From Anaerolinea sp. (GTDB lineage: Bacteria > Chloroflexota > Anaerolineae > Anaerolineales > Anaerolineaceae), in assembly GCA_029975965.1 (NCBI GenBank), contig JARKOV010000068.1, positions 1-29,849 of the forward strand: DNA of 29,849 nucleotides, given 5' to 3'. Below are positions 232 through 13,742 of this stretch, piece after piece. Every line of letters begins with the position of its first letter. Within the stretch, counting starts at the first letter, position 1. The position numbers and the translations under genes are program-made. A model generated the notes under the pieces. The model ran no database searches, had not been told where the DNA came from, and was given only the letters and a program-made list of their open reading frames with translations.

Positions 232-1455
232 ATGCGCCTGTATCAACCTGTTATGCTTCGGGTCGGGGTGGTGATTAGCCTGCTGATGTTGGCCTCCCTG
301 GCCTGCAATTTCCCTACACGGGGCAACGCAACCGAGGCCGCGCCGCTTACCCCCGCGCCGAATGAAGCGATGTACACCGAACCGGCGCCTTTGTTTCCAA
401 CACCGACTTTAGCGGCGGAGCAGCTCGTGCCAACGTCAACCCAAGCGCCGCCTCAGGGCGCCAGCGAGGTGGAGTATAACGGGGTGCGTTTTCAAAATGT
501 GGCGCCTGTATTCAGCGATGTGCGCGCTACGGTTGCCTCCATGCAGCAGGGAGAGGCGGGAATGACGGGTTGGCTGGGTTCGGCGCCTGAGCATTACCGC
601 TTCGAGCTCGTCGGCTACCCGCTGTCCGATCCCTGGATTCAACCCCAGATATTGATCTACCCGATCCAGCGCTACGCGGAGGTCAACACGTCGGCTGGTG
701 AAATCGCGGCGGACCTCGATGCAGAATTGCGCACGGTCGAGGTCAAACCAGAAAGCCGGCCCTTCTTGCCGATGTGGAACGCCGGTCAGGTGTTCAATGC
801 CCGCGTGGAGATCCTGCCCTTCCAAAACGGGCGCGGCCTGCGCTACCTGACCTGCTACGCACAATCCCTGGTGCGAATTGACAACCGCTGCCTGTTCTAC
901 ACCTACCAGGGGCTAAGCGCGGATGGGAAATATTACGTTTCTGCGATTCTACCGGTGGACCTGCCATCCCTCTATGCTGCCGAAGCCGCTACCAAGTGGG
1001 AGAAGGTCACCGGCAGCGACGATCCAAACGTATACCTGCAATACCTCGCCGACATGCGCCAGGTGTTGGCCGCCGCCAGGCCGGAGGAATTTTCTCCGAA
1101 CCTGAATGACCTGGACCTGCTGATAAAAAGCCTAGCGGTCAACCCAACCGTGCAATTGAACGCTCCACCGCTTGCCGCATTCTCCTGCTCCGGGGCGCTG
1201 GCGACTCGCCTGACGCCGGCGATGCGCGCGCGGGTGACTTTCACCGATGGCACCCCTTTGCGGGTGCGGGACGCCCCCGGAAAAAGCGCGAAAATCCTCA
1301 TCACCATCCCCGAAGGCACCGAAATGTTTATCCTCGAAGGGCCGAAATGCGCCGACAAAGGGGTCTGGTGGCGGATGCAGAATAACAACGGCAGTCTGAC
1401 AGGGTGGGTGATGGAGGGCGAAGGGGGGGTCTACTTCATCGAGCCGTGGCAGTGA
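232..1455 (+). CDS. Secreted lipoprotein with C-terminal SH3-like domain
   Basis: This 407-residue protein starts at an ATG preceded by GGAGGG seven bases upstream. Residues 9-24 form a hydrophobic export segment ending in SLAC, with Cys25 as the likely lipidated residue; Ser at -3 makes the lipobox non-canonical. A Pro/Thr/Ala-rich linker (about 30-80) follows, typical of tethered surface lipoproteins. The middle (about 80-320) is a folded region I do not recognise. The C-terminal 75 residues resemble a bacterial SH3 (SH3_3) domain: the motif TPLRVRDAPGKSAKI, the turn IPEGTEMFILEGP, then VWWRMQNN and GWVMEGEGGVYFIE. Such domains usually bind cell-wall material or act as protein-interaction modules, so an extracytoplasmic role is inferred. 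Its last 20 bases overlap the 3' end of the convergent recJ gene. Confidence 0.8.
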   Translation: MRLYQPVMLRVGVVISLLMLASLACNFPTRGNATEAAPLTPAPNEAMYTEPAPLFPTPTLAAEQLVPTSTQAPPQGASEVEYNGVRFQNVAPVFSDVRATVASMQQGEAGMTGWLGSAPEHYRFELVGYPLSDPWIQPQILIYPIQRYAEVNTSAGEIAADLDAELRTVEVKPESRPFLPMWNAGQVFNARVEILPFQNGRGLRYLTCYAQSLVRIDNRCLFYTYQGLSADGKYYVSAILPVDLPSLYAAEAATKWEKVTGSDDPNVYLQYLADMRQVLAAARPEEFSPNLNDLDLLIKSLAVNPTVQLNAPPLAAFSCSGALATRLTPAMRARVTFTDGTPLRVRDAPGKSAKILITIPEGTEMFILEGPKCADKGVWWRMQNNNGSLTGWVMEGEGGVYFIEPWQ

Positions 1456-3769
1456 CCGGCTCAATCCCCAGGGCTTGTATCTCGGCATTCCGAAAGAACT
1501 GCCGGTAAGCGGCGCTCTCATCCAGGACAGCTTTTAACCGCGCCAGCACAGGCTGCGGATCGCCGACCGGCTTGCCTGGGCCGGGCGAGATGAGCAGGTG
1601 GCCGTTCTCGGTCAGGTCAAACGTGAGGTTTCCGCGCGCAGCCAGCCAGTCCAGGCCGATGCGGGCGGCGGTTTCACGCTGGGCGAGGGCCGCCGCCAAC
1701 CGCAGCAGGCTCATCGAAGACGTTCCAGCCGGCGCCTGGTTCATGGCGAATTTGGCAAGACCCGCCAGCCGTTTCAGAAATTCCTGCAAATCGCCCGTTT
1801 CGGGTGGCAGCCCGAACAAAACGATCGTTTGCGGTTGAACAGCCTGGATCGCGGCGCGCAGCTCGGCCCGCCCCGGCGGCGCGGTCCAGATCGCCAGGGT
1901 GTTGGCCGGCCGCAGGCCGGTGCGATCTTGCCCGCCAAGCAGCTCGCGCGCTTCCCCTTCGGCCCAGATGGCCAGGTTACCGCCGCGCAGCGCTTCGAGC
2001 AGAGCGCGCGGGTGCGGCGCGTTGCGGTGGTCGACCACCTCCAGGGCGGGCGCGCTTACCAGGATTTCCTCCGCCGCGATCGGGGCGAAGTCGAGCCATT
2101 CCAGTTGCACTTCGCGCTGACCGTGGAAATTGCTGGCGCGCAACACGCAGGCCAGGTCGAACCATCCTTCCGGTATGGCAAGGCCGGCGCTGTTCCACCA
2201 TAGCGCCTTTTGACTCTGGCCGTTGCGATCTTCCAGGGTGACCAGGCGGTGCTGCTTCTCGCGCCCGATGTCTGCGGCAGCCGCCGCGCGCAGATCGCGG
2301 ATGGCAAACACCGGCGGCGGATTGCCGGGTCCGAATGGCGCGAGGCGTTCCAGGTCGGTGACCAGCTCGAGCGAGATCTCATCCAGGCGCAACTCGGCGT
2401 CGATCTGCAGCGCGGCTTCGGGCATCCCTCCGCTTTCTATGAGCTGTTTTTCGACCGCCATGAACAAGCCTCTGCGGAAGGCAGGCAGGCGCTCCGCATC
2501 GAGCGCCAGGCCGGCCGCCATCGGATGCCCGCCGAAGGATAGCAGCAAGTCGCGCTGCGCGGCGATGCAGGCGGTGATGTCGACCCCTTCGATTGAGCGA
2601 GCTGAGCCGCGCGCCGGATGGCCGGGCGGATTCGCCAGCAGGATGGCCGGGCGGTGGTAGCGTTCCACCAGGGCGCTGGCGGCGATGCCCAGGATGCCGG
2701 CGGGCCAATCGGGGTGAGCAAGGATCAGGACAGGCGACCTGGCCAGGTCGGGGTCGCGCTCGATTTGCTTTTCGGCGGCCTGGAGCACCTGGCTGGTGAG
2801 CAACTGGCGGCGAGCGTTGAGCGCTTCCAACTGCAATGCCAGGGTGCGAGCCCGCTCGTCGTCGCTGGTGGTCAACAACTCCACCGCCGGATTGGCGTCA
2901 TCGAGGCGGCCGAGGGCGTTCAAGCGGGGGGCGATGGCGTAACCGATGTGCTCTTCGCTCAGCCAATCGGGGTTGACCTCCGCCAGCTCCATAACGGCCC
3001 TCAGACCGGCACGTTGCGTGTGGCGCAGCGCTGCGATGCCGCGCTGCAACAGGTAGCGGGCATCCTGCACCTGGCGAGCAACGTCCGCGACGATGCCCAG
3101 GGCGACCAGGTCGAGCAGGGTTGACGGCTCAGCGGAGCGCCCCGCGCGATTCATCAGCGCTTCGGCCAGTTTATAGGCCACGCCGACCCCGGGCAGGGAC
3201 TCGAGCGGGTGCCCTGCGGGCAGCAGGCGCGGGGTCAGGCAGGCCAGCGCCGGAGGGATCGTCTCGCCCAGCACATGGTGGTCGGTGACGATCACATCCA
3301 GCCCCTTGGACTTCGCATAGCTTAAGGCGTCGTGCGCGGTAATGCCGGTGTCGCAGGTGATCAACAGATCGGCACCGGAGTCGAGGATTCGCTGCAAGTT
3401 GGGTATGTTGACCCCATGCGACTCGCGGGCGCGCACCGGGATGTGATAACCGGGGTCAGCCCCCAGGCCGCGCAGCACCGATACGAGTAGCGCGGTGGAG
3501 GTTTGCCCGTCCACGTCGAAATCGCCCCACACCCAGATGCGCTCCTGGCGCTCAATCGCCTGCTCGATGCGCCGGCAGGCGATCTCCATGCCCGGCAAAT
3601 CTTCCGGAGGGGCCGGGGTGTATTGGTGCGGATCGAGAAAGGCCCGCGCTGCAGCCGCGTCGCTGATCCCGCGGCGCGCGAGCAACTCGGCTACCAGCGG
3701 GCTGCCACCCGTCGCCTCGATCAAGTCGACAGGGATGTATATTGGGGAGGGAGCGATCCAGGCCGGCAT
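1436..3769 (-). CDS. recJ: Single-stranded-DNA-specific exonuclease RecJ
   Basis: RecJ degrades single-stranded DNA 5' to 3' in recombination and in mismatch and base-excision repair. The 777-residue protein has the DHH phosphoesterase core: GDFDVDGQT at 82-90, LITCDTGI around Asp140 and VTDHH at 161-165. The DHHA1 half has HPDWPAGILGIAASALVERY and the GGHPMAAG signature near residue 413. These supply the usual metal-binding Asp and His residues. About 200 further residues follow the core, as in long Bacillus-type RecJ proteins, and probably form the RecJ C-terminal domain. The ATG start has no good Shine-Dalgarno sequence; a promoter-like pair ends six bases before it, so the message may be leaderless. 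It is divergent from the membrane-protein gene at 3847 and convergent with the lipoprotein gene, overlapping it by 20 bp. Confidence 0.95.
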   Translation of the reverse strand: MPAWIAPSPIYIPVDLIEATGGSPLVAELLARRGISDAAAARAFLDPHQYTPAPPEDLPGMEIACRRIEQAIERQERIWVWGDFDVDGQTSTALLVSVLRGLGADPGYHIPVRARESHGVNIPNLQRILDSGADLLITCDTGITAHDALSYAKSKGLDVIVTDHHVLGETIPPALACLTPRLLPAGHPLESLPGVGVAYKLAEALMNRAGRSAEPSTLLDLVALGIVADVARQVQDARYLLQRGIAALRHTQRAGLRAVMELAEVNPDWLSEEHIGYAIAPRLNALGRLDDANPAVELLTTSDDERARTLALQLEALNARRQLLTSQVLQAAEKQIERDPDLARSPVLILAHPDWPAGILGIAASALVERYHRPAILLANPPGHPARGSARSIEGVDITACIAAQRDLLLSFGGHPMAAGLALDAERLPAFRRGLFMAVEKQLIESGGMPEAALQIDAELRLDEISLELVTDLERLAPFGPGNPPPVFAIRDLRAAAAADIGREKQHRLVTLEDRNGQSQKALWWNSAGLAIPEGWFDLACVLRASNFHGQREVQLEWLDFAPIAAEEILVSAPALEVVDHRNAPHPRALLEALRGGNLAIWAEGEARELLGGQDRTGLRPANTLAIWTAPPGRAELRAAIQAVQPQTIVLFGLPPETGDLQEFLKRLAGLAKFAMNQAPAGTSSMSLLRLAAALAQRETAARIGLDWLAARGNLTFDLTENGHLLISPGPGKPVGDPQPVLARLKAVLDESAAYRQFFRNAEIQALGIEPVTATAR

Positions 3770-3846: not shown

Positions 3847-5997
3847 ATGTCGAAACGCCCATCCTTGCTCTGGCTCATTCCCGCTCTCATCGCCGGTGAA
3901 ACATTGGCGATCGGTGTTTTTGCGCTGTTCCTCCAACCCCTGGCCGGCGACCCGATCCGCGTGGGGGCAGTGCTGGCGGTGCTGTGGGTCATCTTCACCT
4001 ACTTCGCTCACCGCGCTCTGACGCGCGTGATCTTGCCCGAACTTAACCGACGGCGGGCAGGCGCGCGCCTGGCCTGGCTCGCGGCGTGCCTGTTGGCGGC
4101 GGGTGTGGCGATCCTGGTTGTCCCGCTCCAGCCCGAGCGGATTCACTTTCTATTTCCACAGCACACGCTGCGTATTGCGCTCTTGCAGGAGCAAAATCCG
4201 CAATCGGGCGGCAGTCTGCTGCAGATTGTGCATTGGAAAGATGGCGAATCCTTCCTGTTCTCGCTGGCAGAGTTCCGCACCGGACCCGACTGGCAGATCA
4301 AAGACCAAATGCTGCAAACCAGCCAATTCACCGCTGGATCGGCGACCTGGCAGGGCAGCCTGCTGCACCGTGGATTTTTGGGGCTGCTCACCGGTCCACA
4401 GGCGGGTGTGGCGCGCATCACCTGGGACGGGGTGACGCAAGACGTGGACCTCTACACGCCATCCCCCACGCTGAAAGTCATCAAGCTGGATGGAAGTGGG
4501 CTTCCGGCGCGGCCTTTCGCCTGGCTGGCCTATGCAACCTACCTGGTCGGACTCTGGTTTACCTTTCTGGCGCTTTCGTTGGCGCTGGTGCGACTTGAGA
4601 CGCCGGCGGCGATTCCCCCGGATCAGAAACGCAGCGCCCTGCCGGCGATCATCGGGTATGCCCTGCCGATGCTGCTCACCTGGGGGCTGGCGCTGGCCAT
4701 CTTCTTTCCGGCGGTGATGTCAAGCGATTCGACGCACATCTGGCGCATGATCGCCGGCACCGACGCACTCACCGACTGGCATCCGCCGATTTACACCCTG
4801 CTCCAGTGGCTGCTCACGCGCATCTGGTTTTCGCCGGCGATGACGGCTGGTGCGCAGATCCTTTGCCTGGGACTGGTCGCGGGATGGGGAATTCGCAGCC
4901 TGGTCGAGCAGGGCATGCCGCGCTGGGTCGCGTGGGGATTAAGTTTATTATTTGCTCTTTCTCCGGTCAACCTCAGCCTGGTCATCACGATCTGGAAAGA
5001 CATTCCCTACGCCATCAGCCTGCTGGCATTGTTCGTGATGGTGTTCAAAGCCGTTACCAGCCAGGGAGCCTGGCTGGAGCGTCCAGGAAGCTGGGTCGCT
5101 TTAGGCCTGGTCGGCGCTTCGACCAGCCTGTTCCGTCACAATGGCCTGGTCGTGACGGTCGTCGTTCTGGCAACGCTCCTCCTGGCTTACCGCAGCTCCT
5201 GGCGCGGGCTGGCACGAGCGGCGGGAGCGTTCTTGATCGCCTACAGCCTGATCTCAGGGGCGGTGTACGCCCTGGCGGGTGTGCAACACACCAGTGGCGT
5301 TCTGCGCGATACGGTCTATTTGCACCATATCGCCGCGCATGTCAAAGCCGGCACGCCGCTGACCGATCTCCAGCGCGATTATTTGAACCAGCTCCGCCCG
5401 TTGGGGGAATGGGAATACAGTTACTGCCGCATCGACCCCACTTTTTTTGTTCCCGAGTTCGACCGCAGCCTGTTCGCGGCGAGCAGCGATTTGAACCGGG
5501 GCATTTTTATCGACCTGGCACTGCGCGACCCGCGCGTGGAGGTCGAACACACGCTGGGGAGCAGCTCGCCGGTCTGGCGCGTGCTGCGCCAGTGCGTTTT
5601 CCTTGACCATTTTATCAAGGTCAACGATGGCCAGGTGAGCTGGATCGAGCCAAACAACCTGGGCATCGTGGAAAGCTCGCTCATCCCTGCAGCGGTGCTG
5701 CCCCTGGCGCGGATCGTAAATGGCACAAATTCCGAGATCGGCGCGCCCTGGTTGTGGGGACCTGCGCTGTACTTCTACCTGAGCGTGTTCTGTGGGGCGA
5801 TCTTCGCGCTACGGCGGCGCTCCTGGTGGATCTTGCTGGTACTGCTGGTGCCGTTGACGCAGTCGCTGGTCATGGCGCTGCTCAGCCTGGCGGCGGATTT
5901 CCGTTACCAATATGGGGTCTACCTGATCGCGCTATTGAGCCTGGGGCTGTTGCTGTTGCCTGGAAAGAAGCCAGCGGAATATGAAGTCAACAAGTGA
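3847..5997 (+). CDS. Polytopic membrane protein, DUF6020/GT-C-like
   Basis: This 716-residue multi-pass membrane protein has hydrophobic segments at the N-terminus (about 7-30, 38-56, 76-94). A soluble, probably beta-rich, outward-facing insert of about 120 residues follows, then many more membrane helices. Motifs in the second half (SSDSTHIWRMI, DWHPPIYTLLQWLL, ITIWKDIPYAISLL, SLFRHNG) match my memory of DUF6020 proteins, which resemble GT-C glycosyltransferases that use lipid-linked sugars. A role in cell-envelope glycan assembly is therefore inferred; no substrate can be read. The Shine-Dalgarno match before the ATG is weak (GGAA). It is divergently placed from recJ and convergent with the nuclease gene ending at 6069; the 71 bp between them shows no clear terminator, only a 7 bp GCAGCGG/CCGCTGC repeat with a long loop. 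Confidence 0.65.
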   Translation: MSKRPSLLWLIPALIAGETLAIGVFALFLQPLAGDPIRVGAVLAVLWVIFTYFAHRALTRVILPELNRRRAGARLAWLAACLLAAGVAILVVPLQPERIHFLFPQHTLRIALLQEQNPQSGGSLLQIVHWKDGESFLFSLAEFRTGPDWQIKDQMLQTSQFTAGSATWQGSLLHRGFLGLLTGPQAGVARITWDGVTQDVDLYTPSPTLKVIKLDGSGLPARPFAWLAYATYLVGLWFTFLALSLALVRLETPAAIPPDQKRSALPAIIGYALPMLLTWGLALAIFFPAVMSSDSTHIWRMIAGTDALTDWHPPIYTLLQWLLTRIWFSPAMTAGAQILCLGLVAGWGIRSLVEQGMPRWVAWGLSLLFALSPVNLSLVITIWKDIPYAISLLALFVMVFKAVTSQGAWLERPGSWVALGLVGASTSLFRHNGLVVTVVVLATLLLAYRSSWRGLARAAGAFLIAYSLISGAVYALAGVQHTSGVLRDTVYLHHIAAHVKAGTPLTDLQRDYLNQLRPLGEWEYSYCRIDPTFFVPEFDRSLFAASSDLNRGIFIDLALRDPRVEVEHTLGSSSPVWRVLRQCVFLDHFIKVNDGQVSWIEPNNLGIVESSLIPAAVLPLARIVNGTNSEIGAPWLWGPALYFYLSVFCGAIFALRRRSWWILLVLLVPLTQSLVMALLSLAADFRYQYGVYLIALLSLGLLLLPGKKPAEYEVNK

Positions 5998-6068
5998 TGG
6001 GCTTCACACCTGTGGGGCAGCGGTTGGGTTGAAGAAAACCACAAGTCGGCAATAGCCGCTGCGTCTGG

Positions 6069-6935
6069 TTAGAACTGAATTTCACCGACCTGGTCGAAAT
6101 CGAGATCGAGGCCGGCGGCAAGGTCGCCTTCGATCCCGCTCTCTGCCAGCGACCCGGCCTCAGCGCCGCGCTCGCACAACGAGCGGTATACGCAGAAGCG
6201 GCACAGCCGCTCGTCCTCCGTTTTGACAAATTGCTCCGCTTGCATTTCCTCCAGGGTGCGAATCCTGCCGAGCAGGCTGCGCTCATCCCGCTGGAGCTGC
6301 TTCGCGCCGTATTCGAAGCGTTCCGGCTGGTGAGGGAAAGCGGCGAACCAGTAGATCATCTCGATCTTACCTGGGTCGAAGGCCACCCCGCCGTTCAATC
6401 CAGCGCCCGCGCGGGCGAGCAGATAGGGGTAGACGCGTGTCTGCAGGCGGTTTTCGAGCCAGGCGCGTTTCGGGCGGTTGGGCGATGTTTTCCAATCCCA
6501 GATGACCGCGCGTTTTTCGTCGGGATAGACCTGGATCAGATCGTATTGGGCCAGCAGGCGGTGCTTTCCGAGGGGCGCGCTGAGCATCAGCTCGCTGCGC
6601 TGTTTGCCCTGCTGCAAGGTGGGCAACAGGCGGGTGAAGTTGTCCCACCACGTCGCAAGGTCAGGATCGGCGTCTGCCTGAGCCAACTCGTCCAGCCGCT
6701 CAAGCGGAACGCCCGACAGGGCCTGCTGCGCCAGGCGATGAAAGCGCTCGCCGCGCCGGATATGGCGCTCGTGTTCCTGCACCGGTTCAGCCTGCGGGGC
6801 GGGCCAGGTCAGGCGCAGCAGATAGCGCAACTGGAAGCGCCGCGCGCACTCGTCGAAATCTTGCAGGCTGGCCTGGCTGAAGGCAAACGGCTGGCCGGTA
6901 TCCAGCGTCTCGCGGCGAAGCTTGCTTCTATCCAT
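6069..6935 (-). CDS. Stand-alone PD-(D/E)XK nuclease with AddB-like cysteine set
   Basis: This 288-residue protein fits the RecB/AddB-type nuclease fold. It has the opening FSQASLQDFDECARRF, a GERFH motif with His65, an Asp in LLAQYDLI near 132, and the catalytic IWDWKTS (Asp147, Lys149). Cysteines lie at 30, 245, 248 and 254. One before the fold and a C-x2-C-x5-C group after it is the spacing of the 4Fe-4S staple known in AddB and Cas4-type nucleases. In AddAB and RecBCD this domain is fused to a helicase; here it is separate. Its ATG overlaps the upstream helicase stop by 8 bp (ATGGATAG), so translation is probably coupled and the product likely works with that helicase. Cutting of unwound DNA ends is inferred from these families. 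Confidence 0.85.
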   Translation of the reverse strand: MDRSKLRRETLDTGQPFAFSQASLQDFDECARRFQLRYLLRLTWPAPQAEPVQEHERHIRRGERFHRLAQQALSGVPLERLDELAQADADPDLATWWDNFTRLLPTLQQGKQRSELMLSAPLGKHRLLAQYDLIQVYPDEKRAVIWDWKTSPNRPKRAWLENRLQTRVYPYLLARAGAGLNGGVAFDPGKIEMIYWFAAFPHQPERFEYGAKQLQRDERSLLGRIRTLEEMQAEQFVKTEDERLCRFCVYRSLCERGAEAGSLAESGIEGDLAAGLDLDFDQVGEIQF

Positions 6936-9177
6936 GGGTTGCCCCCCAGAATCGGATTAACTCCTGCAAAGCGCGCGCCGGGACGAGTTTACCGTCGCGC
7001 CCGGTGTTCCAGGTGATGACCAGCTCTCGCCGTGCCCGGGTGATGCCGACAAACAGCAGGCGCAGGCGCTCTCGGGTGTATTCGACCCGGCTGTCCTCTG
7101 TGGCGCGGCCTTCCTCGTAAAATTCATATTCGTCGTTGGTCAGCGCTGCTCTCAACTGAGCGAGCGCCTCAGCTTCCAGGTTCAGGTGGTCGCGGATGAA
7201 CCACTTCTCGGCGATGTACTGGTCGAACAACTCGCCGGAGGGGAAATCGTAATTGTTGGCTGACAGCAGGTAGACCCGGTCCCATTCCAACCCCTTCGCC
7301 TTGTGGATGGTGGCTACCACCACTTTGCCGGGATAACGGTCTGGATCGAAATTGGTGTCTTCCTGGCTGAATCCCAGAAAACGGCGCTCGTTGCGGGCGA
7401 TGACCGCCACCTCCTCACTGAGCTGATCGATCTGCCAATCGGGGTGGTCGTTCTCGCGCTGGCGGATCAGGCTGGCCATCTTATGCGCCACCGCCAGGTC
7501 AGCGGGCTCGTGGAAAATGTCCTGTGCCAGGGTCAGGACGAGTTGATCGACTGGCAGCACGGCAGCTGACTGCCAGCGGCGCAACAACTCACGGAAAGCG
7601 ACCAGCTCTGCGAAGACGGCTGGTTCGTCGCGCTGTAAAGCCGGGTCGTCGAGCCAGTCGCCGCCTTCGAGGGGGGCGAGGTAATCCTCAACCCTGCCGT
7701 TGGAATGCAGCAAACGGGCGGTGCGCTCGGCCAATGCCTTTTCATCGGCGGTCAAAGCGTTGCGTTTGCGCCAGGATTGGTATGCTTTGCTCAACCTGGC
7801 GGCAGAATGTGGTTCCGCCAGCCAGCGCTGGATCTCGCTCAGTGTGGAGGCTGCGGCGCGGGTGGCCGAGGTGCTGTTGAGCAGGCTGTCGATCACCTCG
7901 ACGCCGCGACGGCGCAACTCATCGACCATCTCGAAGCCGCGCACGTTGCGTGGGGTGAGCACCGCCACGGTGCGTGCGTGGTTGACCGGGTCTTTGATCC
8001 AGTTCGCGACCGAATTGGCAACGGTTTTGATCTCGGCGGCGGGCTCCAGGCGGGCAGCGTGCAGGAAGACCCTGTCCGGCTGGTCGGGAGGGTTGGGCTG
8101 CGGATCGTCGGCGCCGGTGGGCTGGATCTCCGGGTACGCCAGCGCGCCGGTCAACGGGTCGGGGGTCGCCAGGCTTTGCGACCAGCGGATCAGGTGATTG
8201 GCGAGGGAGATGATGCTGAGGGTGGAGCGCCCCGATTCGGGCAGGTCGCGGCGGATCACGCCGGCTTCATCGCGGAAATCGAGCAGGTATTCGGGGCTGG
8301 CGGTGGTGAAGGTCTCGTAAATGGCCTGGTTGGGGTCGCCCACGCGCACCCAGTTGCCGTCTGGGCCGGAAAGCCTGCGCAGGATCTCCTCTTGCAGGCG
8401 CGAGGAATCCTGCGCTTCGTCTTCCAGGATGTAGGGCCACTGGTAGCGCAGGCGCTCGACCAGCGATTCGTCCAGCTTGAGCGCCAGCAGCGCCAGGCGG
8501 ATCAAGTCGTCGAAGTCCACCGCGCCGCGGTAGTGCAGCGCGCGTTGGTAATCGGCGTACAACGCCCAACCCATTTCGGCCAGCGGGAGCGGCATGGGTA
8601 ACTCATCGAGCCTGAGGCGCAGGGCTTCGGGGGTCAATTCGCAGTCTTTGGCGTAGCGGATGGTTTCGAGACCGATGGCCTGCACCAATTCGGACAATTT
8701 CTCTCGGCGCACCCAATCCAGGCTGCGCTCGTCGATGTCATCTTTGAGATAGCCGGCGATGAAATCGTAGTGGGTGCGCAGCCAGGCGGCGGAGACGTCG
8801 TTGAGCACGCGCCCGGCCTCGCTTTCGTCGATAATCTGGAAATCTTCGGCCAGCCCAACCGCTTCGGGGCGCTCGCGCACGATGTCGTGCGTCAGGCCAT
8901 GCAGGGTGCGCACGCGGTATCCCAGCCCGGGCAGGAGGTGTGCCGCCCTGAGGAAACCGCTGATGCGCGCAGAGAAGTTATCCACCGCCGAATTGACCAG
9001 CGTGACCACCAGCACCTCCTGGTCGGGGGCGAGCTCACCGCGCAGCAAGATGTCGGCGGCCAGGCGAGACAGGGTAAAGGTCTTGCCAGATCCTGGCACG
9101 GCGGAAATGCCCATCCAGCCGCCGCGGTAGGCGAGGATTTCGACCTGGCTGGGGCGCAGGCGCAACTCCTCAGCCAT
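6928..9177 (-). CDS. UvrD/PcrA-type superfamily 1 DNA helicase
   Basis: The 749-residue protein has a complete set of SF1A helicase motifs. These are Walker A AVPGSGKT at 26-33, motif Ia VVTLVNSAVDNF, motif II LEDEAQDS at 251-258, motif III VGDPNQAIYETFTTA at 279-293, motif V TIHKAKGLEW near 620 and motif VI LLFVGITRARREL near 705. It should therefore be an active ATP-driven 3'-5' translocase on DNA. I start it at the ATG at 9177, not the longer frame from 9228, because MAEELRLRPSQVEIL is the family-like beginning and this ATG overlaps the preceding stop by 8 bp (ATGGCTGA). It is much shorter than AddA or RecB and lacks a fused nuclease; the next gene, also overlapping by 8 bp, supplies one. 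It is the likely motor of a three-part end-processing complex. Confidence 0.92.
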   Translation of the reverse strand: MAEELRLRPSQVEILAYRGGWMGISAVPGSGKTFTLSRLAADILLRGELAPDQEVLVVTLVNSAVDNFSARISGFLRAAHLLPGLGYRVRTLHGLTHDIVRERPEAVGLAEDFQIIDESEAGRVLNDVSAAWLRTHYDFIAGYLKDDIDERSLDWVRREKLSELVQAIGLETIRYAKDCELTPEALRLRLDELPMPLPLAEMGWALYADYQRALHYRGAVDFDDLIRLALLALKLDESLVERLRYQWPYILEDEAQDSSRLQEEILRRLSGPDGNWVRVGDPNQAIYETFTTASPEYLLDFRDEAGVIRRDLPESGRSTLSIISLANHLIRWSQSLATPDPLTGALAYPEIQPTGADDPQPNPPDQPDRVFLHAARLEPAAEIKTVANSVANWIKDPVNHARTVAVLTPRNVRGFEMVDELRRRGVEVIDSLLNSTSATRAAASTLSEIQRWLAEPHSAARLSKAYQSWRKRNALTADEKALAERTARLLHSNGRVEDYLAPLEGGDWLDDPALQRDEPAVFAELVAFRELLRRWQSAAVLPVDQLVLTLAQDIFHEPADLAVAHKMASLIRQRENDHPDWQIDQLSEEVAVIARNERRFLGFSQEDTNFDPDRYPGKVVVATIHKAKGLEWDRVYLLSANNYDFPSGELFDQYIAEKWFIRDHLNLEAEALAQLRAALTNDEYEFYEEGRATEDSRVEYTRERLRLLFVGITRARRELVITWNTGRDGKLVPARALQELIRFWGATHG

Positions 9178-11278
9178 TCTGGCCTCGCTGTAGCTGCACC
9201 TGGTAAATCGCTCGCAGGAGCATCCCACGCTGGTCGTAACCGCCCTCGCTCAATTCGCTAAAGCAGAGGTGAACCTGGCCGCGGCAGCGGCGCAGCAACC
9301 CCAGCAGCAGGCGGAAGAGCGATTCGCGGTTGGTCTCGTACTCCTCGACGGCGGTCCACAGGCGTCCCTCCGGCCAGGAGCGGCTGAGCACATACGGGTG
9401 GGTGAGGGGTTGAGACAGGCGCTCGAACCAGGCGTTGGAGCCGGCGTCCAGCCAGAACTGGTGCTCGACTGGGCGGTTGTTGAGCAAGAAGGTGTAGGCG
9501 GGGGCGATGAAAACGGCGTCCTCCGAAGGGGCCTGCCAGCTGCTCACGTAGGTGGAGGCGATCACCCCATCGCGCACCATCTCCAGGTACTCACGACCGA
9601 GCGAGCCGCCGTCCATGCCTCCGGCGCTGTCGATCGCCCAGCGGAATTTCTGCGCCGATTCGATCAGGTTAGCTGCCACCTGCCCGGCGTCGAGATGGCG
9701 GTGAAAGCCGAAACCGCGCTGGGCGAGCACCTCACCGAACAGGCGGCTGAAAAAGACGTCCAGCTCGGTTTCCGGTTGCCCGGCCACATCGACCAGCCAG
9801 TTGCGCAGGGTGTCGAAGCGGTTGCCGACGGTGTAGCTGATGCGCTCCTGCATCTCGGGCTTAATTTGGACGAACGTTCCCAATCGGGCGTCGCGCGGCC
9901 GGTAAACCACCTCGGCAAGCAGTTGGGCGCGCACCAGGTCCAGCCCGTCGATCGCCTGCATCAGGGCATGCACCACCTCGACCCGCTCGGGTCGCAGTCC
10001 CCACTGCGGGTGTGCCAGGCGGGCCAGGGTGAGCAGGCAGCGCGCGGCGGGCTCGTCGGAGAGCGAGCGCGAAGGCCGGTGAGAGCGGTAGGGCACGTCG
10101 AGCGCGTCCAGGCGGTTCATCAGCGAAAATCGCAGCGAATCGGGCAGGAACGGCGCGAGGATGGCGATCTCGCCGGGCGGCGTGCCTTTCTGGACCAAGG
10201 CGGCCACTTCGCCAGTCACCCAATCCAGCATCTGTGGGTAAAAGCGCAGCGTGTCGGGCGGGAAGACCAGCGCTTCGCTCCAATCTGCCTGACTGGCTTC
10301 GTCCAGCGGCGCCTTTGCTTCCGGCCGGTCCAACGCAGCCCCCAGGCGGATTCCCAGGCTTTCCAGCGCGGGGGACGTGGTCAGCGAGGCTTCGAAGGCA
10401 ACCTGCTCGTCGCAACCGGCTGCCAGGCGGCCGGCGCTTTCGGGGTCGGCGCCAAGGAAGCGCCGGTAACCGGCCTGCCTGTCGTAGATCAGCAGCGCGG
10501 ATTCCAGCCCGGGCAGCCAGTCCAGGAGCAGGTCGTGGGCGAAGGGGGTATCCTCTTCGACGTTGTCGGCGATCAGGTGGCGCACCGAGGCGCGCAGGTA
10601 TTCGCGGCAGAGGAGCGACGGGCGCAGGAAATCGCGGAAGACCTCGACTTGCAGCGAAAAATCGAGCAGGTTGTGCTCCAGGCAGTATTGCCGGAAGAGG
10701 CCGGCGCAGCGCTGCGCGTCGAGGTAGACGCGGCGCTGGCTGGTCTCGCCGGCCCAGGCGGCGGCGAGACGCTCGCCGATTTGCTCGACCGGGAAACCGG
10801 TCAGGGCGGCCTTGTTGAGGTTGTCGAGGATCTGGCTGTAGAGGCGGTTGCGGTCGATGCTGATCGACTCGAACAGGCCCTCGTCGAGGAGCGGGCGCAC
10901 CAGGTGAGCCATGTAATACTGGGCGGTCTCCAGGGTTAAAAAGGACGGCGGGCGCTCGGGGTGGGCAAAGCCGGCCTCGCGCGCCACCAGCGGCCAGAAC
11001 AGGTCGACCATGCGGCGCGCCAGGCCGCCCGCGGTGAGCAGGCTGACCTGACCTCCGGGCGGCGCGTCCGGCGAGCGCAGCGCTTCGGCATACGGCGCTC
11101 CCAGGGCGCGCTGCGGGACGAGCACCAGCATCTGCTCTCCCGGCACGCCTGCCTCGAGCAAGCGCAGCATGCGCCCCACGGCGGCGGTCGTTTTTCCGCT
11201 GCCGGCCGGGCCTTCGAGGAAAACCCGACTTTGCTGGGGTAGCTGAACCAGGTCACGTTGAGCGGGGGTGAGCTTCAT
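9170..11278 (-). CDS. UvrD-like helicase paralogue with degenerate motifs
   Basis: The 702-residue protein starts like an SF1 helicase (LTPAQRDLVQLPQQSRVFLE) and keeps Walker A GPAGSGKT at 23-30 and a motif Ia-like MLVLVPQRALG. Beyond that the motifs have drifted. Motif II is IADNVEED (236-243), where active enzymes have DE-x-QD. The motif III region is IYDRQAGYRRFLGADPE (264-280), not GD-x-x-QSIY. The motif V and VI regions hold APAYTFLLNN and LLRRCRGQVHLCFSELSEGG, without the KGLE and TRA signatures. It may bind ATP but probably hydrolyses it poorly, recalling the non-motor halves AddB and RecC, which scan or hold DNA. It lies 41 bp after the methyltransferase gene and its stop overlaps the helicase start. 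No clear Shine-Dalgarno sequence precedes its ATG. Confidence 0.75.
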   Translation of the reverse strand: MKLTPAQRDLVQLPQQSRVFLEGPAGSGKTTAAVGRMLRLLEAGVPGEQMLVLVPQRALGAPYAEALRSPDAPPGGQVSLLTAGGLARRMVDLFWPLVAREAGFAHPERPPSFLTLETAQYYMAHLVRPLLDEGLFESISIDRNRLYSQILDNLNKAALTGFPVEQIGERLAAAWAGETSQRRVYLDAQRCAGLFRQYCLEHNLLDFSLQVEVFRDFLRPSLLCREYLRASVRHLIADNVEEDTPFAHDLLLDWLPGLESALLIYDRQAGYRRFLGADPESAGRLAAGCDEQVAFEASLTTSPALESLGIRLGAALDRPEAKAPLDEASQADWSEALVFPPDTLRFYPQMLDWVTGEVAALVQKGTPPGEIAILAPFLPDSLRFSLMNRLDALDVPYRSHRPSRSLSDEPAARCLLTLARLAHPQWGLRPERVEVVHALMQAIDGLDLVRAQLLAEVVYRPRDARLGTFVQIKPEMQERISYTVGNRFDTLRNWLVDVAGQPETELDVFFSRLFGEVLAQRGFGFHRHLDAGQVAANLIESAQKFRWAIDSAGGMDGGSLGREYLEMVRDGVIASTYVSSWQAPSEDAVFIAPAYTFLLNNRPVEHQFWLDAGSNAWFERLSQPLTHPYVLSRSWPEGRLWTAVEEYETNRESLFRLLLGLLRRCRGQVHLCFSELSEGGYDQRGMLLRAIYQVQLQRGQNG

Positions 11279-11319
11279 GGGAAGTGGTTGGTCATCAGGG
11301 ATGCCGGTTCATCGGGAAG

Positions 11320-12408
11320 CTAGCCTTCCACGTGGTTGACTTGCTCGCGCAGCTCAGCGATCAACTGCCAGCTACCCGGATTTTTTTCGAAATACCAGTG
11401 CTCCCAGCCGTTGGCGGGCTGGCGCCCGAGCAGGTGGGCGGCAACCTGGTGGATCGAGCCGCGCAGCCCGTCCAGGGCGAGGTGCCCGTCGGCCTGGATG
11501 ATCGCCGTGCGCGCGGGGTCGCGCTCGAAGAGCAGGGGCTGTCCGGGGCGCAGCAAGCCGGCCTCGAGCAAGTTGCCGAAGGGCACTCGCGGGCGTCGGC
11601 GGCTGCGCGGAAGCTGCACGGTTTCCGGCGGGGCGGGTTGCACCGCGTCGATGCGCTCCCGCGCCAGTCGCACGTATTTCTCCTCGCGCTCGATGCCGAT
11701 CCACTGGCGACCGAGCAGCTTTGCCACGGCCCCGCTGGTGCCGGTGCCGAAGAACGGGTCGAGCACCACATCGCCCGGGTTGCTGGAGGCCAGGATCACG
11801 CGGTAGAGCAGCGCCTCGGGCTTCTGAGTCGAGTGAGCTTTCTTGCCGTTGGCGCGCACGCGCTCCGGCCCGGAGCAAATCGGCAGCACCCAGTCGGAGC
11901 GCATCTGCAGGTCTTCGTTGAGCGCTTTCATCGCGTGGTGGTTGAAGGTGTACTCGGCGTCTTTGTGCTTGACGGCCCAGATCAGGGTCTCATGGGCGTT
12001 GGTGAAGCGCACCCCGCGAAAGTTGGGCATCGGGTTGGTCTTGATCCAGGCGATGTCGTTGAGCAGCCAGAAGCTCATGTCCTGCAAGATGGCGCCCAGG
12101 CGGTAGATGTTGTGATAGGTGCCGATCACCCACAGCGAGCCGTTGTCCTTGAGCACCCGCCGGCAGCCGGACAGCCACTCGCGGCAGAAAGCGTCGTAGG
12201 CGGCGAAGCTCTCGAACTGGTCCCAGGCATCGTCCACCGCGTCCACGCGGGAGCGGTTGGGACGGAACAGCTCCTGCTGGAGCTGCAGGTTGTAGGGCGG
12301 GTCGGCGAAGATCAGGTCGACCGATTTTTCCGGTAACGTGGGCAGAATCTCGCGGCAGTCGCCGGCGAGAATCTGGTTGAGGGGCAGCGCTGGGTAGGCT
12401 GTTGCCAA
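11320..12408 (-). CDS. CcrM/HinfI-like adenine-N6 DNA methyltransferase
   Basis: The 362-residue protein is a beta-class amino-methyltransferase. It has the catalytic DPPYNLQL at 36-43, then AVDDAWDQFESF, IGTYHNIYRLGAILQD, NPMPNFRGVRFTNAHETLIW, KAHSTQKPEALLYRVI and the SAM-binding DPFFGTGTSGAVAKLLGRQ. The last ~85 residues carry the extra DNA-recognition domain typical of CcrM (VPFGNLLEAGLL, GSIHQVAAHLLG, NGWEHWYFEK). The length matches CcrM (about 358), the orphan methyltransferase that modifies GANTC in Alphaproteobacteria. GANTC specificity is inferred from this similarity. The start is TTG at 12408, with AAGGAG five bases upstream; no in-frame ATG gives a better beginning. No restriction endonuclease gene is adjacent. 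It is the first gene of the helicase/nuclease run, 41 bp ahead of the next. Confidence 0.9.
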   Translation of the reverse strand: MATAYPALPLNQILAGDCREILPTLPEKSVDLIFADPPYNLQLQQELFRPNRSRVDAVDDAWDQFESFAAYDAFCREWLSGCRRVLKDNGSLWVIGTYHNIYRLGAILQDMSFWLLNDIAWIKTNPMPNFRGVRFTNAHETLIWAVKHKDAEYTFNHHAMKALNEDLQMRSDWVLPICSGPERVRANGKKAHSTQKPEALLYRVILASSNPGDVVLDPFFGTGTSGAVAKLLGRQWIGIEREEKYVRLARERIDAVQPAPPETVQLPRSRRRPRVPFGNLLEAGLLRPGQPLLFERDPARTAIIQADGHLALDGLRGSIHQVAAHLLGRQPANGWEHWYFEKNPGSWQLIAELREQVNHVEG

Positions 12409-12428
12409 TCGTTCTCCTTAATCCAACC

Positions 12429-12469
12429 GAATCAGTCCTTTAATTGTACATCGAATTTCTAATCGATTC
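12429..12469 (-). promoter_or_regulatory. Methyltransferase operon promoter flanked by GANTC sites
   Basis: Read on the minus strand, a -10 box TACAAT lies at 12448-12443; the -35 region is weak. Two GANTC sites flank it: GATTC at 12465-12469 overlaps the expected -35 position, and GAATC at 12429-12433 lies just after the expected transcription start. If the encoded enzyme methylates GANTC, it could control its own promoter, as known for ccrM in Caulobacter. The sites are seen; the regulation is inferred. Confidence 0.5.
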
Positions 12470-12508
12470 GCCCTGGGGATTTTGACCGGAGGAGAGGAGA
12501 AGATCCAC

Positions 12509-12532
12509 CACGAAGGCACGAAGACACCAAGG
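12509..12532. repeat. Three tandem 8-bp units of the CACGAAGG type
   Basis: Three consecutive units read CACGAAGG, CACGAAGA and CACCAAGG. From general knowledge, similar CACGAAGG-rich stretches are dispersed through intergenic DNA of many Chloroflexota and other environmental bacteria. Only one cluster is visible here, so mobility or function cannot be judged. Confidence 0.6.
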
Positions 12533-12650
12533 CGATTTCGGTAGAAGGCGATGAGAAGACAGGCTAATCCGTTTATGGGATATGTTTCGGTAATTACTAG
12601 GGAGTAGATAGATTACGCAAATCTGGATGATCTTAAAAGGATGATATGGA

Positions 12651-12684
12651 TGTCATGTTGAGCCGCCTGTAGCGGTGAAACACC
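12651..12684. repeat. TGTTGAGC...GAAACA palindromic repeat remnant
   Basis: TGTT pairs with AACA and CCGC with GCGG around a CTGTA loop, with GA/GA opposed between the two stems. The pattern resembles the common dispersed unit of the form TGTCATGTTGAGC-x-GCGAAACA in bacterial intergenic regions. A single copy is visible in this window. Confidence 0.5.
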
Positions 12685-12913
12685 CTTGCGCTCCCTGGCA
12701 CTTGCATCCAGGGTAAGTGTGCCTGCAAGTGTCTCATGATCGGTAAATACCGCGGCTTTCTCTTGCGCTGGCGCGCACTCAGCGCCTGGCCGTTTGACTG
12801 GGATCGCAGCCGTTCAACGCGCAAGGCAATTTCGGCAGCGACCTCGCGCAGACCTGGCTTGCGGCGTTGGATGCAAAGTGAAGATTGGGTATGAGGAAAT
12901 CCCTCAGGCATGT

Positions 12914-12919
12914 TAAAAT
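12914..12919 (+). promoter_or_regulatory. -10 box TAAAAT for the NYN-LOTUS gene
   Basis: TAAAAT matches five of six consensus positions and lies 40 bases before the chosen start codon. No good -35 hexamer is seen at 16-18 bases. Its position supports starting the protein at 12960 and not further upstream. Confidence 0.4.
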
Positions 12920-12959
12920 AGGGATAGTAGTGGGTAGAAGAGGAGACAAGTCAATTTTT

Positions 12960-13742
12960 ATGGATCAAGAACCAGCGACCGTCCGCACCCGGCGGATAGC
13001 GATGTTAATCGATGGTGACAATGCTCAACCATCGTTGATCAGCAATATGCTGGCCGAGACGGGCAAATATGGGCAGGTGATCATCCGCCGCATTTACGGC
13101 GACTGGACCACCGCCAATATGAACGGGTGGAAAGACACCCTGCAAACTTACGCCATCCAGCCCATCCAGCAGTTTCGTTACACGATCGGTAAGAATGCCA
13201 CCGACAGCGCGATGATCATCGACGCGATGGACATCCTCTATGAGGACCGCGTGGACGGCTTCTGCCTCGTTTCGAGCGACAGCGATTACACCCGGCTGGC
13301 GACGCGCATTCGCGAAAAGGGCATCTACGTGGTCGGCATCGGCCGGCAAACCACCCCGCGGGCTTTCGTCAACGCCTGCGATGTGTTCGTCTTCACCGAG
13401 AACTTGCAGAAAAACCTGCGCAAAGAGCCGCGCGCTCCTCGGGAAAAAGAGCAGAAGAAGAAAAGCGATAAGACCAGCAAGCAGGTTGAGGAGAACGAGT
13501 TGCTCAACGATCCCTTGCCCCTGCTCAAACAAGCCTTCGACCTGGCTGTGCAAGACGACGGTTGGGCATTCTTAGGGGTGATGGGTACGCAGTTGCGACA
13601 GCTCGACCCGAGCTTTGACCCGCGCACCTATGGCTACCGCCAGTTATCGCTGCTGATGCAGGCTTACCCGGACGTGTTTGAGATGGAGATGGGCAAAAAG
13701 GGCGACGGCACCTTTAACGTGTACGTTCGCCTGGTCGAGTAA
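12960..13742 (+). CDS. NYN-domain ribonuclease with C-terminal LOTUS (OST-HTH) domain
   Basis: The 260-residue protein has an N-terminal NYN/LabA-type PIN-like nuclease domain (12-150): AMLIDGDN (Asp18), GKNATDSAMIIDAMDILY (Asp82) and CLVSSDSDYTRLATRIREKG (Asp107, Asp109), the acidic residues expected to bind the catalytic metal. A lysine/glutamate-rich linker (155-180) joins it to an OST-HTH/LOTUS domain (184-259) with FLGVMGTQLRQLDPSFDPR, YGYRQLSLLMQ and YPDVFEME. LOTUS domains bind RNA or protein partners, so a role in RNA cleavage or turnover is inferred. I start at the ATG at 12960; an in-frame TTG at 12885 lies before the -10 box. GGAG stands 14 bases upstream, rather far. A strong terminator follows. 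It is transcribed alone. Confidence 0.88.
   Translation: MDQEPATVRTRRIAMLIDGDNAQPSLISNMLAETGKYGQVIIRRIYGDWTTANMNGWKDTLQTYAIQPIQQFRYTIGKNATDSAMIIDAMDILYEDRVDGFCLVSSDSDYTRLATRIREKGIYVVGIGRQTTPRAFVNACDVFVFTENLQKNLRKEPRAPREKEQKKKSDKTSKQVEENELLNDPLPLLKQAFDLAVQDDGWAFLGVMGTQLRQLDPSFDPRTYGYRQLSLLMQAYPDVFEMEMGKKGDGTFNVYVRLVE

Follow-up and report, generated by a model that had tools for sequence, protein, structure and literature searches.

A conserved set of pseudo-helicase, UvrD-type helicase and stand-alone Fe-S-type nuclease genes in Chloroflexota as a candidate DNA-end-processing machine

Layout of the locus

Four minus-strand genes follow one another closely between positions 6069 and 12408 of the window (the whole 29,849-nucleotide stretch of DNA analysed here), and a gene for RecJ lies farther downstream on the same strand, behind a single inserted gene of plus-strand orientation. 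The features, in the direction of the minus-strand genes, are the following:

12885-13742, divergent: NYN + OST-HTH/LOTUS protein, upstream of MT
11320-12408, minus strand: MT, CcrM-like orphan adenine methyltransferase, TTG start preceded by AAGGAG
9170-11278, minus strand: PH, full-length SF1A pseudo-helicase, 702 aa
9170-9177, minus strand: PH/HEL coding overlap, 8 bp
6928-9177, minus strand: HEL, UvrD-type SF1A helicase, 749 aa, ATG start at 9177
6928-6935, minus strand: HEL/NUC coding overlap, 8 bp
6069-6935, minus strand: NUC, stand-alone Fe-S-type PD-(D/E)XK nuclease, 288 aa
3847-5997, plus strand: membrane-type protein, 716 aa, between NUC and RecJ
1436-3769, minus strand: RecJ, 777 aa, TIGR00644 match

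The first four minus-strand genes are real, and the coordinates and calls given to them by an earlier, sequence-only reading stand; that reading identified the genes correctly but overlooked RecJ on the same strand. MT is separated from PH by 41 bp, and both 8-bp overlaps previously described at the two junctions that follow are likewise real, given a HEL start at the ATG at 9177, which the PH/HEL overlap presumes and upstream of which the mechanical ORF list has a GTG at 9228. The PH/HEL junction is also -8 in five relatives (L001-L005, with L001 being the cultured Anaerolinea thermolimosa) and the HEL/NUC junction is -8 in L001, an agreement that is only partly independent, as the relatives’ starts were chosen by nearness to those of the window. 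In a domain scan MT returned N6_N4_Mtase and RAMA, PH a UvrD-like N-terminus only, HEL a full UvrD and NUC a PDDEXK_1 domain, and a sigma-70 promoter and terminator scan of positions 5900-13000 gave nothing exceeding shuffles.

RecJ matches TIGR00644 with 491 bits (cut-off 397) and belongs to the conserved neighbourhood. The 716-aa gene that precedes it is matched in L001 and L002 and not in L004, where NUC and RecJ lie 2 bp apart; it is probably a derived insertion and no part of the machine proposed below. Elsewhere, at loci L167 and L171 (genomes G013 and G180), a RecJ-like gene 37-40% identical to that of the window adjoins a CcrM-like methyltransferase.

A putative motor, a silent helicase and a separate nuclease

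HEL carries the motifs PGSGKT, DEAQD, GDPNQAIY, HKAKGLEWD and GITRA, all of them intact in 35 aligned sequences, and as judged from these motifs it is an intact SF1A motor. The domain scan detects neither a nuclease domain nor a PDDEXK match in this chain, so that an assembly built on it would have one nuclease site instead of AddAB’s two. The HEL model aligns to UvrD/PcrA, AdnB and AddA structures, as well as to those of GajB, and by profile PcrA is slightly better than AddA, the two being about equal. A quick 36-row tree, which includes AddA rows from Chloroflexota and has a midpoint root for drawing only, sets HEL apart as a long-branched group (support 100) that lies outside the rows of AddA, AdnAB-like chains and PcrA.

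PH retains the P-loop GPAGSGKT, with G28-K29 invariant in 58 aligned sequences, while its motif II reads DNVEE (DN-x-EE vs. the usual DE-x-QD), the motif II Glu being replaced by Asn in 58/58, and the Gln of motif III is lost. By analogy, such a combination suggests a protein that would bind nucleotide without hydrolysing ATP. A whole SF1A fold is predicted (model pLDDT 87.8), for which structure comparison gives UvrD-type chains the top Z, and the model aligns with AdnB over 617 residues at 3.8 A and with AddB over 612 residues at 5.7 A; no RecC chain is found among the best 50 rows listed by Foldseek and VIA, an absence that carries no evidential weight. By profile, AddB (E 8.4e-10) and PcrA (E 3.4e-9) match about equally and an AdnA-like profile reaches merely E 0.001, and the domain scan detects no PDDEXK match in PH.

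In NUC, four cysteines (C30, C245, C248 and C254) are invariant in 43 aligned sequences together with H66, E115, D132, D147, K149 and Q165, by which NUC reads as an intact Fe-S-type nuclease. By profile it comes closest to the AddB nuclease domain, in a match that spans 235 columns and takes in the Cys cluster (E 2e-9); AddA and two AdnAB-like profiles, the latter being small (4 and 3 sequences), are matched less well. The earlier description of HEL as an intact UvrD-type helicase and of NUC as an Fe-S-type PD-(D/E)XK nuclease thus holds, with all HEL motifs kept and the NUC catalytic residues and four cysteines invariant across the respective alignments. The term ‘decayed’ that had been applied to PH is misleading: 5526 database proteins match it at E <=0.001, the best 120 of these being 55-100% identical, and together with the invariant P-loop these matches rule out a decayed pseudogene.

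Co-occurrence and gene neighbourhood in Chloroflexota

A strong PH match is present in 60 of 399 Chloroflexota genomes, as counted at E <1e-20, with the 81 weaker of 141 matched genomes treated as carrying unrelated helicases. NUC was found in 55 of the 60 PH genomes, a count that excludes a match in G114 (E 4e-11, within a 1022-aa frame), and in 0/339 PH-negative genomes. HEL was found in 59/60 and in 0/80 randomly drawn PH-negative genomes, a negative result for which the same search in the PH genomes serves as positive control. The searches thus leave five PH genomes in which NUC, and one in which HEL, was not found, and each of the three genes usually has a single locus per genome.

Gene order was followed in the best 80 of at least 461 relatives; all 80 loci are from Chloroflexota, as are the few named database matches. 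Where at least 9 kb is available downstream of PH (42/80 loci), HEL follows in 35/42, NUC in 29/42 and RecJ in 20/42, with none of the three in 7/42, and none of the best matches lies on the strand opposite to PH. Twenty deep-branch loci, some of which end at contig ends, hold PH-HEL-NUC in ten cases (L127 and L135-L143, with RecJ also present in L137 alone), PH-HEL in three and PH alone in seven. Across the 55 genomes with both PH and NUC, the two lie within 3.5 kb of each other in 17, always at 2.2-2.5 kb, which is the length of HEL; in 11 a wider gap, of up to 1.2 Mb, separates them on a single contig, and the separation exceeds 80 kb in six genomes and 1 Mb in G305 and G329. In a further 27 they are on different contigs, many of the assemblies being fragmented.

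PH, HEL and NUC are therefore a genuine co-occurring unit. The presence counts and the conserved order and strand bear out the sequence-only reading in that the motor, the non-motor and the nuclease belong to a single set but are encoded as distinct chains. The same reading had held that finding these genes apart in relatives would speak against the set; PH and NUC do lie far apart in some genomes, but both are still kept there, and this retention in the same genomes even after order has been lost favours joint function over accidental neighbourhood. Separate action, in which HEL would be an accessory helicase of UvrD type, NUC would cut on its own, PH would regulate and co-inheritance would reflect a shared repair pathway, would accommodate the scattering of the genes in many genomes and a HEL that is as near PcrA as AddA by profile, but we consider it unlikely, as the near-complete co-occurrence and the short or overlapping junctions at many loci better suit a stoichiometric complex and a helicase that is silent could be expected to depend on another protein.

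A role in anti-phage or anti-plasmid defence, where the co-inherited set would act in the manner of the Gabija helicase and nuclease and repair would be secondary or absent, appears quite improbable. Only some half of the genomes in the class have the set (HEL at E <=1e-100 in 77/150 genomes of G001’s class) and HEL aligns to GajB structures, as would befit defence, and a PADLOC defence-library scan that covered the PH, HEL, NUC and MT proteins returned GajB and DRT helicases as the best HEL matches and Cas4-like nucleases among those of NUC, all of them generic; yet the distances of PH, HEL, NUC and RecJ correlate with one another (r 0.69-0.89; 8 genomes, 6 for RecJ), those of PH, HEL and NUC correlate with a PcrA housekeeping control (r 0.57-0.67; 5-6 genomes, few points), and there is usually one locus per genome with RecJ as a frequent neighbour. 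GajA is absent from the complete PADLOC matches of PH (7) and NUC (8), HEL and MT having at least 25 each, and the adjoining nuclease is of the PD-(D/E)XK type, unlike the ATPase-TOPRIM nuclease GajA of Gabija (GajAB).

The remaining gene of the run, MT, carries PF01555 and PF18755 (an N6-adenine methylase with a CcrM/RAMA C-terminal domain). It resembles CcrM in its match to NF050803 over nearly the whole length (553 bits) and to the solved CcrM 6pbd (E 6e-137), but falls short of the 830-bit equivalog cut-off, and no restriction endonuclease family was detected among the nine window genes scanned, both MT neighbours included. PMC3973325 already makes mention of some Chloroflexi homologues that have the C-terminal domain of CcrM. 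MT is widespread in Anaerolineae: it is present, mostly in single copy, in 22 of 25 PH genomes and was not found in the other three, and it occurs in 42/61 genomes of G002’s family.

The sequence-only reading had linked this methyltransferase to the helicase and nuclease genes, and a function within the machine, marking self DNA against end degradation, would agree with its place in the window, directly upstream of PH and in the same orientation, and with an upstream position relative to PH in L002 and L003 as well. These two are, however, the only ones of the 80 loci where MT is near PH; among loci with at least 2 kb upstream the count is 1/55, and PH stands beside MT in 1/36 MT loci checked (28 + 8, two surveys). 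MT distances also track those of PH, HEL, NUC and RecJ less well (r 0.23-0.54, or 0.29-0.54 for PH, HEL and NUC alone; small samples), and together with the three PH genomes in which MT was not found these results make such a function very improbable. We judge MT to be a local neighbour and not a machine component, the latter being rejected on comparisons of synteny, presence and distance, and the proposed link is not supported.

The window holds 68 GANTC sites vs. 118 expected from a dinucleotide shuffle. The idea that this shortfall signals an active CcrM-like mark was dropped: GANTC is only the sixth most avoided of 16 XYNY’X’ palindromes, and seven relatives, some having MT and others lacking it, display no consistent difference. 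The densest GANTC cluster of the window, four sites within 12345-12469 (125 bp), covers the MT start and the sequence upstream of it, where self-regulation of MT is possible on what are weak statistics.

Relation to known machines and a proposed role at DNA ends

To our knowledge, the nuclease is joined to a helicase chain in all three described RecBCD-type machines (AddAB, RecBCD and AdnAB). Both AdnA and AdnB have a nuclease of their own, and RecBCD consists of three chains, with one silent helicase-like chain (RecC) and one nuclease; shuffling of RecBCD/AddAB is reportedly the subject of a 2009 paper in JB. With AddAB the present set would share one active SF1A motor beside a helicase-like chain with a retained P-loop, a nuclease closest by profile to the C-terminal Fe-S nuclease of AddB and a PH that spans ~612 residues of AddB. 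It differs in that the nuclease is a gene of its own, whereas AddAB has a C-terminal nuclease on both subunits, in that HEL groups apart from the Chloroflexota AddA rows of the quick tree, and in that AddB-AddA pairs occur alongside the set in some of the same genomes. The likeness to AdnAB lies in the alignment of PH to AdnB, but AdnAB is a pair of motor-nuclease fusions and neither PH nor HEL has a fused nuclease. As in RecBCD, there are three chains, with a silent helicase-like chain as the RecC analogue and one nuclease; unlike RecBCD, the set has no RecC family member and no second motor, and its nuclease is not fused to the motor.

Descent as a ‘split AddAB’ is unsupported, with PH tied between AddB and PcrA by profile and HEL placed outside AddA; the PH tie, taken with the near-tie of HEL between PcrA and AddA, leaves kinship with AddAB in particular without support. 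The best reading is of a set that, as far as its sequences indicate, resembles AddAB in parts and layout.

Whether genomes with the set lack the known machines, as the sequence-only reading had proposed to check, was approached through a fusion proxy for AddAB and AdnAB (PF12705 matched at E <=1e-8 inside open frames no shorter than 900 aa, counted by eye). Long PDDEXK_1 fusions are found in 15/60 PH genomes, including G048 on an AddA-like frame alone, vs. 42/80 PH-negative genomes (Fisher p 0.0016), and 11 of 12 fusion loci contain an AddB-AddA pair, the other, L091, being one long frame. The related genomes G001-G003 have no fused PDDEXK_1 frame at E <=1e-5. Since the proxy catches RecB poorly (that of E. 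coli is detected at 1e-5 and missed at 1e-6), the PH genomes were also searched for RecC (PF04257), which is present in 0/60 at E <=1e-5 with a positive E. coli control and has no match among the nine window proteins scanned. The lack of known machines is thus seen in the 45/60 carriers without an AddAB/AdnAB-type fusion and in the RecC result, but not in the 15 carriers with an AddAB-type fusion, on account of which replacement by the set is partial and not a simple one.

In light of the co-occurrence, gene order and predicted folds, we lean toward PH, HEL and NUC forming a single helicase-nuclease with a housekeeping role in processing double-strand DNA ends for recombination, an AddAB/RecBCD-like machine made from three chains. 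HEL would be its single ATP-driven motor, unwinding in the 3'-to-5' direction from DNA ends, while PH beside it may act as a nucleotide-binding, non-hydrolysing scanner or guide of one strand, in the manner of the helicase-like portion of AddB, and could perhaps recognise a Chi-like sequence. That portion of AddB scans for Chi, and binding of ATP at the second site makes the Chi complex more stable, as described in PMC4824097. NUC would dock to the complex as its only Fe-S nuclease and cut in trans, and RecJ, which is often encoded next, may finish resection of the 5' strand.

Taken further, the set could tentatively be viewed as a fourth class of bacterial RecBCD-type machine, seen so far in Anaerolineae and possibly extending to related Chloroflexota, in which a motor, a binding-only scanner and a detachable Fe-S nuclease would be joined by RecJ from the same operon for 5' resection, with an origin independent of AddAB and with AddAB replaced in most carriers; we hold this broader claim to be somewhat short of even likelihood. 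A literature search, with most subscription journals outside it, returned no title or abstract describing such a set. With separate genes for motor, silent motor and nuclease, each activity could be reconstituted and swapped alone, and such a set would directly test what a silent helicase contributes; it would also fill a gap in break repair in a large environmental lineage, given the 45/60 carriers without known fused machines.

Fused machines of another kind are also encountered in the phylum: at L093, L094 and L096, in PH-negative Chloroflexota, AdnAB-like pairs of about 1050-1250 aa carry PDDEXK_1 on both chains. AdnAB is reported only in Actinobacteria in PMC6452273.
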